From NCBI GenBank assembly GCA_902766095.1, contig CACXCN010000063.1:1-34612 (forward strand): a stretch of 34,612 bases of DNA, read 5' to 3'. A model generated the notes under the pieces. The model had not been told where the DNA came from and ran no database searches. It saw only the letters and a program-made list of their open reading frames with translations. Shown in pieces: positions 3,776 through 7,883 of this stretch; within the stretch, counting starts at the first letter, position 1, and each line of letters begins with the position of its first letter. The stretch is from an uncultured Selenomonas sp. Its GTDB lineage: Bacteria > Bacillota > Negativicutes > Selenomonadales > Selenomonadaceae. Both the position numbers and the translations under genes were made by a program.

Positions 3776-3824
3776 TCTTTTTCTCAAGAAAGGATTTTCG
3801 CAATGCGAAATGCTGTTTCCTGCG

Positions 3825-3853
3825 TTGACAGCCCTATTTTCCTGTGCTAGACT
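3825..3853 (+). promoter_or_regulatory. Strong sigma-A promoter of the CapA-DcuC-AbgA unit
   Basis: A perfect TTGACA (3825-3830) and TAGACT (3848-3853) are separated by exactly 17 bases, giving an expected start near 3860. The transcript would carry a leader of about 97 nucleotides before the start codon at 3957. Confidence 0.85.
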
Positions 3854-3858
3854 GAAAT

Positions 3859-3876
3859 CGTTCAAGCAGGTGAACG
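3859..3876 (+). promoter_or_regulatory. Inverted repeat at the transcription start
   Basis: CGTTCA (3859-3864) and TGAACG (3871-3876) form a six-base inverted repeat around AGCAGG, starting at the predicted +1. It could be a 5'-end RNA hairpin or a DNA operator. A smaller stem CGTT/AACG (3889-3892 with 3899-3902) follows. Confidence 0.45.
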
Positions 3877-3902
3877 AAAGTCGAATATCGTTTATGGCAA
3901 CG

Positions 3903-3936
3903 TAGCCAGTATCCATAGGAGATACTGGCTATTTTA
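3903..3936 (+). terminator. Leader attenuator-like terminator hairpin
   Basis: TAGCCAGTATC (3903-3913) is perfectly complementary to GATACTGGCTA (3921-3931), with a seven-base loop and TTTT directly after. It lies between the strong promoter at 3825-3853 and the first gene, about 25 bases upstream of the start codon. An intrinsic terminator at this place implies conditional read-through. Confidence 0.75.
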
Positions 3937-3956
3937 CTAAATGGGAGGTATGCAAC

Positions 3957-5252
3957 ATGTCAAGTATATCTGTCGTGCTCGCTGGAGATTCATTCATCAC
4001 CCAGCACCTGCCGCACGACCAGCGCCGCGAAGCACTGCGGAACTATCTGGCCGGATTCGATGTGCGCTTCACGAATCTCGAGGTACTGCTGCATGATTTC
4101 GAGGTCTACCCGGCTCCGGTCAGCGGCGGCACCTGGGCGGCTGCCCGGCCGGAGATGCTCGAGGACCTGCTCTATCTGGGGTTCAACATGTTCACCTGGG
4201 CCAACAACCACATCATCGACTGGAACCTCGGCGGCATACTCACGACGATGCGCCACCTCGATGAGCACCACTGCCTGCACGCCGGTGTCGGCCGCAATCT
4301 GGCCGAGGCCGCGCAGCCGAAATACCTCGATACGCCGCAGGGCCGCGTGGCCATCATCGGCGTGACCTCGACCATGAGCCCCTGGGGCATGGCCAGCCAG
4401 CCGCGGGCCGACGTCCTGGGGCGCCCGGGAGCCAATGTCCTGCGCTATAACACCGTGCATTATATCGCACCTGAGGAATTCGACCATTTCGCCGAGCTCA
4501 TCGACAAGACCGACGTCAATGCCAACCGCCGCCTCAACGAGATCGAGGGCTTCACGAAGCCGGTACAGGGCGGCTGCTATGTGGGCGATATCCGCTTCGA
4601 GCCCGGCAAGCCCGGCACAAAGACGACGTACAACGAGACCGATGCCCACCGCATCGTCAAATCCATCCAGGAGGCCCGCCGCCAGGCCGATGTCGTCCTC
4701 GTCAGCCATCATACCCACGAGCGCAAAGGCCTCGACAAAGAGAAGCCGGCCGACTTCGCCCGCGACTTTGCCCATCTCTGCCTCGACTCCGGCGCTGACG
4801 CCTATATCGGGCACGGTCCGCATATCTGGCGCGGCATCGAGATATACAATAAAAAGCCCGTATTCTACAGCCTCGGCGATTTCATATTCCAGAATGAATC
4901 CGTCGAGCGTCAGCCGACCGAGTTCTACGACCTCTACAATCTGGGGCCGAGCAACACGCTCTCCGATGGACTGGACCGCCGCAGTGCGAATGGCACGCGC
5001 GGCCTCGCCGCCGATGAGCGCGTCTATGAATCCGCCCTGCCCTCGTTCTGCATCGACGGCGGCCGCATCAGCCATATCATGCTGCAGCCGATATCGCTCG
5101 GCTTCTCGCTCACGCGCGGCCGCAAGGGTCGTCCCTGCCTCGCTCCACCTGCCGAAGCCAAGAAGATACTGCGTCACATCGCTGAGCTATCCGCCCCCTA
5201 TGGCACCGAGATGACCATAGAGAACGATATGGGGCAGATACGCATCAGCTGA
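3957..5252 (+). CDS. CapA-like (PGA_cap) metallophosphatase-fold protein
   Basis: This 431-residue protein belongs to the CapA/PgsA family, first known from poly-gamma-glutamate capsule synthesis and structurally a calcineurin-type metallophosphatase. The metal-site motifs occur in order: GDSF (D11), FTNLEV (N40, E42), NNHIID (N84, H85, D88), VSHHTHE (H251, H252) and GHGPH (286-289), ending with YSLGDFIFQ. There is no signal peptide or membrane anchor, unlike capsule-type CapA, so a cytoplasmic enzyme is likely. GGGAGG upstream supports the ATG. It is the first gene of a unit with a DcuC-family carrier and an AbgA-like amidohydrolase and no capBC genes, which argues against capsule synthesis and for a role in processing a gamma-glutamyl or N-acyl amino-acid compound. 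That last point is inference. Confidence 0.8.
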   Translation: MSSISVVLAGDSFITQHLPHDQRREALRNYLAGFDVRFTNLEVLLHDFEVYPAPVSGGTWAAARPEMLEDLLYLGFNMFTWANNHIIDWNLGGILTTMRHLDEHHCLHAGVGRNLAEAAQPKYLDTPQGRVAIIGVTSTMSPWGMASQPRADVLGRPGANVLRYNTVHYIAPEEFDHFAELIDKTDVNANRRLNEIEGFTKPVQGGCYVGDIRFEPGKPGTKTTYNETDAHRIVKSIQEARRQADVVLVSHHTHERKGLDKEKPADFARDFAHLCLDSGADAYIGHGPHIWRGIEIYNKKPVFYSLGDFIFQNESVERQPTEFYDLYNLGPSNTLSDGLDRRSANGTRGLAADERVYESALPSFCIDGGRISHIMLQPISLGFSLTRGRKGRPCLAPPAEAKKILRHIAELSAPYGTEMTIENDMGQIRIS

Positions 5253-5286: not shown

Positions 5287-6552
5287 ATGGTTACTTTGAT
5301 GTTGATCGCCGGCGTCGTCATCGTCTGCGCTGTCGTCGTGGCCCTCGTCAAGGGCTTTGAGGCGCGCGTGACGCTGATCGCTGCCGGCATACTCATGGCC
5401 TGCATCGGCGGAGCGCCCATGTCGGCCCTGAACGCCTTTGCCAAAAGCATGACGAACAGCGGACTCATACAGGCCGTCTGCTCTGTCATGGGCTTTGCGA
5501 TGGCCGTGCGCTTCACCGGCTGCGACAAGCACCTGATCAACGCGATGGCTTCCGTCATATCGCGGTTCCGCTTCGCTCTCATACCAGGCGTCGTCATCTG
5601 CACGTACCTCGTCAACATCGCCCTGCCGAGTGCCGCGGGCACTGCGGCTGCCGCCGGTGCCATATTCATCCCGCTGCTCATGGCTGCCGGCGTCGCCGCA
5701 CCGCTCGCCGCTGCCGCCGTCAAGTGCGGCACCTATGGCAGCATGCTGAACCCGGGCCTCGCCCATAACCCGTTCGTCGCCAAGATCGCCGGCGTCGATG
5801 TCATGGACGTCATCGCCTTCCACTACAAGGCCAACATCGCCTCGCTCATCGTCGCTACCATCGCCATCACCATCATCGCCCACTATCTCAAAGAGGATAA
5901 GGGCCATATCCCCGAAAACCTGCAGATAAACAAAGACTTCAAGGTCAACTACCTCTATGCCCTGATGCCAATCATACCGATCGTCATCCTGCTCCTCGGC
6001 TCCACAGGACTCGTGCCACTGTTCAAGATGGGTGTGCCGCAGGCCATGATCATCGGTGCCATCCTGACGCTCGTCGTCACGCGCAGCAAGCCGCAGGACA
6101 TCTCGGATGCCTTCTTCGAGGGCATGGGCAAGGCTTATGGCAAGATTCTCGGTATCATCATTTCCGCCGGCGTATTCGTCGCCGGCCTCACCGCGATCGG
6201 CCTCGTGAAATTCTTCATCGAGCTGATGCTGGACAACCCTGCCATCGTCAAGCTCTGCGCTGCCTTCGGACCGTTCCTGCTCGGACTGCTCGTCGGCTCC
6301 GGCGATGCCGCTACCTTCGCCTTCAACGAGGCCATTACTCCGTACGCTCAGGATTTCGGCATGACCGAGGTCCAGATGGGCAGTATGGCTACCCTGGGCG
6401 GTACGCTCGGACGCACGATGTCGCCAATCGCGGGCGCGACCATCATCTGCGCCGGCATCGCCGGTGTCAACCCGATGGAGATCACGAAGCGCAACGCCAT
6501 CCCGATGCTCTGCGCTCTCCTCGTCGGCATGTTCATACTGCTCTATCTCTGA
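5287..6552 (+). CDS. DcuC family C4-dicarboxylate/anion transporter
   Basis: This is a 421-residue membrane protein with about 12 helices, resembling the anaerobic C4-dicarboxylate carrier DcuC and related ion-transporter superfamily members. Characteristic stretches are LPSAAGTAAAAGAIFIPLL, KCGTYGSMLNPGLAHNPFVAKIAG and, in the second half, LVGSGDAATFAFNEAITPYA with GGTLGRTMSPIAGATIICAGIAGVNPME; these are the paired re-entrant-loop regions. AGGAGG precedes the ATG by about ten bases. It sits 34 bases after the CapA-like gene and 20 bases before the amidohydrolase gene. In the E. coli abg operon the transporter beside the hydrolase is AbgT, so here a different carrier family seems to fill that place. 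The substrate is unknown; an amidated or acylated dicarboxylic amino acid fits the context. Confidence 0.8.
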   Translation: MVTLMLIAGVVIVCAVVVALVKGFEARVTLIAAGILMACIGGAPMSALNAFAKSMTNSGLIQAVCSVMGFAMAVRFTGCDKHLINAMASVISRFRFALIPGVVICTYLVNIALPSAAGTAAAAGAIFIPLLMAAGVAAPLAAAAVKCGTYGSMLNPGLAHNPFVAKIAGVDVMDVIAFHYKANIASLIVATIAITIIAHYLKEDKGHIPENLQINKDFKVNYLYALMPIIPIVILLLGSTGLVPLFKMGVPQAMIIGAILTLVVTRSKPQDISDAFFEGMGKAYGKILGIIISAGVFVAGLTAIGLVKFFIELMLDNPAIVKLCAAFGPFLLGLLVGSGDAATFAFNEAITPYAQDFGMTEVQMGSMATLGGTLGRTMSPIAGATIICAGIAGVNPMEITKRNAIPMLCALLVGMFILLYL

Positions 6553-6572: not shown

Positions 6573-7883
6573 ATGAAAGAAAAACTTTTTGCCCTGGCGG
6601 ATGAGCTGCTGCCCGAGCTGCAGCAGTGCCGCCGCGATATCCATCGCTACCCCGAGCCCGGCTGGACCGAGTTCCGCACGGCCGCTAAGGTAGCCAGCAC
6701 GCTCAGCGAGCTCGGCTACGACGTGCAGACCGGCGCCGACGTCATCCGCCCGGACTGCATGATGGGCGTACCAGCAGCCGATACGCTGGCCGCCGAGCAG
6801 CAGCGCGCCATAGACGAGGGTGCCGATCCGGAGTGGGTGCACCGCATGGATGGCGGTCTGACCGGCGTCGTCGGCACCATGCACTTCGGCGACGGCCCCA
6901 TCGTGGCCGTGCGCTTCGATATGGACAGCAACGACATCACGGAGACCGATGACCCCGGACATTTCCCGAACAAGGAAGGCTTTGCCTCGCATCACCCCGG
7001 CGCCATGCACGCCTGCGGTCATGACGGACATACGTCCGTCGGCCTGTTCCTGGCCCGCATCCTCGCGGCCTGCCGTGACGAGCTGGGCGGCACGATCAAG
7101 CTCTGCTTCCAGCCCGCTGAAGAGGGCGTGCGCGGCGGCTACGCCATGTCGCAGAGCGGCGTGCTCGACGATGTCGACTACCTGCTCGGCGCCCATTTCG
7201 GATTCAAGATGCGCCATACCGGCAGCGTCGCCTGCAACGTCACCGGCTTCCTCGCCACGAGCAAATACGATGCCCGCTTCACCGGCATCCCGGCCCATGC
7301 CGGCGCTGCCCCGGAGCAGGGACGCAATGCTCTGCTGGCCGCCGCCTGCGCCACGCTGAACCTCCATGCCATCGCCCGCCACTCCGCCGGCGCCTCCCGC
7401 ATCAATGTGGGCCGCATCGAAGCCGGCAGCGGCCGCAACATCATCGGTGACCACGGCCTGCTCTGCCTCGAGACGCGCGGTGCCACGAGCGAGATCAACA
7501 CGTATATGGAGCAGGAGGCCCAGCGCATCATAAAGGCGGCAGCCGCCATGTATGACGTCTCTGTCGACATCACGAAAGTCGGCGGTGCCGCCGGCGGCAG
7601 CAACTCGCCGGAGCTCGCGGCATTCCTCGAGAAAGCTGCCAATGACTCCGGCCTGTTCGACAACGTCGTCGGCGAGTGCCCCTTCGGCGCCAGCGAGGAC
7701 TTTTCCTACCTCATGGAACGCGTGCAGTCGCACGGCGGTCAGGCTGCCTACATGATGGTAGGCGCCGACCTCGCCGCCGGCCACCACGACAGCCATTTCA
7801 GCTTCGACGAGCGCGCCCTGGGCTACTCGCTGAAATTCATGGCCTACGCGGTCACAAAGCTGCTGAACGGCGCAAATGCCTGA
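6573..7883 (+). CDS. M20 family amidohydrolase, AbgA-like
   Basis: This is a 436-residue zinc-dependent M20 amidohydrolase, the same length as E. coli AbgA and recognisably similar throughout (RRDIHRYPEPGWTEFRTA near 20-37, HACGHDGHT 146-154, CFQPAEEG 178-185, FTGIPAHAGA near 235, AGHHDSHFSFDE near the end). C148 and H150 are metal-binding positions and E183/E184 the catalytic base/ligand pair. AbgA with AbgB cleaves p-aminobenzoyl-glutamate; no abgB partner is present, so it may act alone on another N-acyl or aminoacyl amide. It is the last gene of the CapA-DcuC unit, with AGGAG 11 bases upstream and a strong terminator after it. Confidence 0.85.
   Translation: MKEKLFALADELLPELQQCRRDIHRYPEPGWTEFRTAAKVASTLSELGYDVQTGADVIRPDCMMGVPAADTLAAEQQRAIDEGADPEWVHRMDGGLTGVVGTMHFGDGPIVAVRFDMDSNDITETDDPGHFPNKEGFASHHPGAMHACGHDGHTSVGLFLARILAACRDELGGTIKLCFQPAEEGVRGGYAMSQSGVLDDVDYLLGAHFGFKMRHTGSVACNVTGFLATSKYDARFTGIPAHAGAAPEQGRNALLAAACATLNLHAIARHSAGASRINVGRIEAGSGRNIIGDHGLLCLETRGATSEINTYMEQEAQRIIKAAAAMYDVSVDITKVGGAAGGSNSPELAAFLEKAANDSGLFDNVVGECPFGASEDFSYLMERVQSHGGQAAYMMVGADLAAGHHDSHFSFDERALGYSLKFMAYAVTKLLNGANA

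Follow-up and report, generated by a model that had tools for sequence, protein, structure and literature searches.

A probable ANTAR-type attenuator, of variant form, in the leader of a CapA-like/DcuC/M20-amidohydrolase operon of an uncultured Selenomonas sp.

The window, a 34,612-nt stretch of DNA from an uncultured Selenomonas sp. (contig CACXCN010000063.1), contains a leader of about 97 nt lying between a strong promoter and the start codon of a CapA-like/DcuC/M20-amidohydrolase operon, and we propose that this leader is probably a protein-dependent attenuator of the ANTAR type. The proposal is based on the anatomy of the leader, on the overlap between a hexaloop hairpin (P2) and the terminator, on a regulator pair encoded by the genome, and on the occurrence of the same module at nitrogen genes both in this genome and across the class; within it we infer binding, dependence on phosphorylation, in which direction control works and what kind of signal is involved. 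The features concerned are as follows.

3825..3853, + strand: sigma-70 promoter, TTGACA-N17-TAGACT with extended -10 TGC
3858..3877, + strand: upstream P1-like hairpin, TCGTTCA[AGCAGG]TGAACGA, 7 bp, -6.8 kcal/mol
3895..3908, + strand: ANTAR-type hexaloop hairpin P2, TGGC[AACGTA]GCCA, with an A1/G4 loop, C:G closing and a 3' arm in common with the terminator
3903..3935, + strand: intrinsic terminator, 11-bp stem, 7-nt loop and TTTT, from pairing and fold energy
3957..5252, + strand: CapA-like (PGA_cap) protein, first gene of the operon (PF09587, E 2.7e-50)
5287..6552, + strand: DcuC-family anion transporter (NF037994, E 8e-124)
6573..7883, + strand: M20-family amidohydrolase (TIGR01891, E 1.1e-87)

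The promoter has a -35 element TTGACA (3825-3830), a 17-nt spacer and a -10 element TAGACT (3848-3853), and the near-consensus character claimed for it in the original prediction is borne out by 10 matches at the 12 consensus positions together with an extended -10 TG. Transcription is likely to start near G3860. Two further features are seen in the DNA just upstream. A perfect 15-bp palindrome, TTTCGCAATGCGAAA, is situated 5' of the promoter at 3796-3810 and is a possible protein-binding site, and within 3785-3850 the ribosome-site-like stretch AAGAAAGGATTTTCGCAATG opens a 15-codon frame (MRNAVSCVDSPIFLC) that overlaps the promoter; this 21-nt stretch serves as a start site in the relative G056 (L096).

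The leader is indeed structured, being more stable than all of 200 dinucleotide shuffles (z = -3.98). The terminator arms TAGCCAGTATC (3903-3913) and GATACTGGCTA (3921-3931) are 100% complementary over 11 bp, with a T-run (TTTT, 3932-3935) directly 3' of the stem, just as predicted, and the structure has an energy of -17.5 kcal/mol. A stock terminator scanner makes no call at 3903-3935, and the U-tract is short (UUUUACU), which counts against the ANTAR reading. Of the two small stems that had been proposed upstream of the terminator, the one placed at 3859-3876 is present but extends over 3858-3877, giving 7 bp, one pair more than first described, whereas the one at 3889-3902 (CGUU/AACG) exists but is weak, and an overlapping hairpin at 3895-3908 is better.

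This overlapping hairpin, which the original prediction overlooked although it is the diagnostic element of the leader, is P2. In RNA, UGGC[AACGUA]GCCA (-4.4 kcal/mol) has at least 3 bp and a hexaloop with A1 and G4, and its closing pair, C3898:G3905, is the C:G pair described for ANTAR hexaloops (PMC7496416) and asked for by the NasR SELEX criterion. The published features of ANTAR targets are such a hexaloop, a P2 that overlaps the terminator, and an association with nitrogen genes (PMC3369931). Here the 3' arm of P2, GCCA at 3905-3908, falls inside the terminator arm 3903-3913, and the two structures are mutually exclusive. The terminator wins in the fold of the full-length leader (-17.5 versus -4.4 kcal/mol), so that polymerase could read through only if some factor kept the small hairpin in place. 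The P2 hairpin alone is unspecific, as a covariance model of the ammonium-transporter (amt) modules described below ranks it only fourth in a search of the window, with an E of about 1; its specificity rests on its position relative to the terminator.

A candidate for the holding factor is encoded in the genome, where just one clear ANTAR protein is found: a response regulator with a receiver and an ANTAR domain (PF03861, E 2.5e-21 / 8.2e-21), whose gene lies directly downstream of a GAF_PdtaS/HisKA_2 kinase gene. An ANTAR protein is present in 53 of the 60 relatives tested. We propose that by default RNA polymerase would initiate near 3860 and halt at the 11-bp terminator. The PdtaS/EutW-like kinase would phosphorylate the response regulator, which would then bind the hexaloop of UGGC[AACGUA]GCCA, with the upstream hexaloop hairpin as a probable second target; P2 in its bound state would withhold GCCA from the terminator stem and allow polymerase to enter the operon. 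The original prediction of regulated read-through at a leader terminator is supported, with an anatomy that fits a protein-dependent (ANTAR) attenuator.

Because ANTAR regulons favour nitrogen genes (PMC3369931), the amt loci of Negativicutes were chosen for reading. Of 29 such loci taken from other Negativicutes genomes, 26 carry a hexaloop-plus-terminator module ahead of amt (27 if L195 is included, for which a G:U pair must be allowed), and 16 have two modules in tandem. The two loci that lack a module are L193, in a genome that has an ANTAR protein, and L197, in genome G011, the only tested genome with amt but without an ANTAR protein (n=1). The module consensus in these leaders is G-R-C-[A-A-U-G-R-M]-G-Y-C. 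The scan asked for no more than three pairs, of which two had to be G:C, together with A1 and G4, so the conservation of a C:G closing pair (43/43), loop A2 (41/43) and an outer G:C (41/43) is largely independent of it, and P2 of the window matches at all of these positions. The amt leaders (L168-L201) and the window leader are alike in having a promoter, a GGC[AANGNN]GCC hexaloop, an overlapping terminator and a short distance to the gene; the former are often tandem and usually lack an upstream hairpin, whereas the latter has one module together with its 7-bp upstream hairpin. Rfam searches of the amt leaders matched no leader family.

Other features of the amt leaders were seen in passing. 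In the approximately 100-450 nt before amt at L168-L196, modules are found in most leaders and a canonical, closely spaced first hairpin almost never. Many of the terminator loops contain the self-complementary GGTACC, as in AGGTACCGG (L178, L179, L184, L185, L186, L189, L190 and L196). A conserved CATCARCAA(G)A-like element is found at the 5' end of amt-type leaders just past the -10 (L174, L178, L183, L184, L188-L191, L194 and L201); it may be an initial transcribed sequence or else a weak first hairpin, and is similar to the loop CAAGCAGG in the window leader.

Modules elsewhere in the same genome were sought by whole-genome pattern scans followed by reading of the loci. They are found before amt (C1, C44 and C69), before an operon of dimethylamine methyltransferase, corrinoid protein and amt genes (C24), before corrinoid proteins (C10 and C44, the latter named by eye from sequence) and before glutamine synthetase (C39). 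Genome-wide, 10 of 11 GGC/GAC modules with an overlapping terminator (that of the window leader counted) are situated in 5' leaders, mostly of nitrogen genes. One operon with an ANTAR-type leader includes a dimethylamine methyltransferase gene (mtbB; L201:2708-4111) that is interrupted by an in-frame stop and gives a PYLIS_2 match of 57.8 bits, and the genome probably uses pyrrolysine. The leader of a hydantoinase B gene (C29; L264) represents an alternative way of coupling hexaloop and terminator, in which the hexaloop AATGTG is itself part of a terminator arm (GACAATGTG/CACATTGTC). The geometry nearest to that of the window leader is seen before two paralogous LuxR-family regulators of 255 and 257 aa (C77 and C82; L276 and L277), where in each case an unrelated 5' hairpin of 6-7 bp is separated by a 19-nt linker from an ANTAR-type hexaloop with its terminator.

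The upstream hairpin of the window leader, with arms TCGTTCA (3858-3864) and TGAACGA (3871-3877), does not conform to a canonical P1. Its loop, AGCAGG, has A1 but carries A rather than G at position 4, its closing pair (A3864:U3871) is A:U rather than C:G, and the linker between it and P2 is 17 nt. In the Enterococcus faecalis eut leaders a G-to-A change at position 4 of the P1 loop lowered induction, natural linkers are 5-12 nt, and a 14-nt linker impaired induction (PMC3369931), whereas the relaxed search model used for actinobacteria allows one point variation and linkers of 2-25 nt (PMC8164766). The window leader passes this relaxed definition and fails the strict two-hairpin one. A strict P1 within 25 nt is rare in the lineage, occurring at 1 of 55 modules (the window leader counted), and either Negativicutes recognise single hexaloops or the first element differs from the textbook P1. 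While we have good confidence that the window leader would act as an ANTAR attenuator, because of this misfit we class it among the variants of the type and not with its canonical members. More tentatively, and with somewhat less than even confidence, we suggest that the two-component ANTAR regulator of Negativicutes may act on single hexaloops, one per terminator and often in tandem, rather than on close canonical pairs, and that the window leader may be of a subtype whose canonical first hairpin is replaced by a stable hairpin of unrelated loop, situated on the 5' side about 17-19 nt upstream.

Comparison with known systems places the leader similarly. The EutV-regulated eut leaders of E. 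faecalis (PMC3369931, Ramesh et al. 2012) share the A1/G4 hexaloop whose 3' arm overlaps the terminator 5' arm, a two-component ANTAR response regulator and kinase in the genome, and a nitrogen-related regulon; the window leader differs in the A4, A:U closing and longer linker of its first hairpin and in its CapA-like/DcuC/M20 targets. The Klebsiella oxytoca nasF leader bound by NasR (PMC7496416) likewise has an ANNGNN hexaloop closed by C:G at the terminator base, although NasR is a one-component nitrate sensor acting at two canonical hairpins, as opposed to a two-component regulator and a single canonical hairpin here.

The CapA-like protein is related to MslH-type peptide epimerases (NF038314, 276.7 bits, under the 700-bit cut-off of that model), its start at 3957 fits with the Shine-Dalgarno sequence GGGAGG, and we infer that the operon would suit the import and hydrolysis of an organic-nitrogen compound. 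DcuC and CapA genes adjoin in many Negativicutes loci, so that the operon itself is old and the window leader local; gene order differs at several of the CapA/DcuC/M20 homologue loci. A leader kept ahead of homologous CapA/DcuC genes, on which the original prediction would have relied, is not seen: it is lacking at all 17 Negativicutes homologues retrieved by a contig search, and it is instead before amt, in the same class, that the module is kept. Searches for DNA similarity to the leader in 189 genomes of the family and in phages, plasmids and viral contigs yielded nothing beyond fragments of promoters or ribosome sites and matches by chance, with one exact hairpin match among the viral contigs.

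A simpler explanation is that the structure is a plain leader terminator, serving for constitutive partial termination or to halt transcripts running in from the upstream MATE gene, with the hexaloop coincidental and expression set by promoter strength. When the terminator arm is held fixed and the upstream sequence shuffled, an overlapping hexaloop arises in 0.27-0.28% of cases, or 0.11-0.18% if loop A2 is required, and at this chance rate of about 0.1-0.3% per terminator many terminators would give a few; C60 (L252), whose loop is AACGTG, looks like an ordinary downstream terminator with just such a chance hexaloop, and the non-canonical upstream hairpin also favours this explanation. Among 273 terminator-like structures in stretches of the genome totalling about 430 kb, only that of the window leader has the strict overlapping hexaloop (a looser definition gives 3). 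We consider a plain terminator unlikely given that a strong promoter lies ahead of the module and a start codon behind it, that P2 agrees with positions conserved in the lineage but not demanded by the scan, and that such modules are concentrated in 5' leaders, mostly those of nitrogen genes.

The inverted repeats could alternatively be DNA operators, with the 20-bp repeat TCGTTCA-N6-TGAACGA over +1 (3858-3877) and TTTCGCAATGCGAAA binding a repressor or activator and the hairpins incidental. The 20-bp repeat contains no mismatch and covers the predicted start of transcription, and both could work alongside attenuation, but operators would leave the terminator and its overlapping hexaloop unexplained; there is no second perfect copy of TCGTTCA-N6-TGAACGA in the genome, one-mismatch copies lie mostly in long open frames, and the C77 and C82 leaders have their unrelated hairpins at a similar distance from the hexaloop, so this explanation is very unlikely. 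A small-molecule riboswitch of an undescribed class, as the original prediction had entertained, would suit a leader this compact and stable, in which several pairings exclude one another. However, covariance models of 4227 Rfam families gave no match to the leader at the gathering threshold or at E up to 10, in keeping with the earlier view that it belongs to no recognised riboswitch class; no conserved aptamer was found at homologous operons, nor similar DNA in the 189 family genomes, and with the key features accounted for by a protein-dependent explanation we regard a riboswitch as extremely improbable. The GCAGG of the upstream hairpin loop resembles a BglG/LicT-type RAT; such an antiterminator was rejected, as the upstream hairpin and the terminator have no overlap. 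Leader-peptide attenuation was also rejected, as on inspection the frame from GTG 3870 to TAG 3905 and a 3-codon frame at ATG 3894 have neither a spaced Shine-Dalgarno sequence nor a run of regulatory codons.

With the leader read as a probable ANTAR-type attenuator, a previously unrecognised element is assigned to a protein-dependent mechanism, and its likely regulator is named from the same genome. The operon would join ammonium transporters, glutamine synthetase and methylamine methyltransferases in a concrete nitrogen-scavenging regulon proposed for Negativicutes, for which we found no paper describing one. The rarity of the two-hairpin textbook form among ANTAR targets here bears on how RNA is recognised by one ANTAR dimer, and on why covariance searches may overlook such targets.
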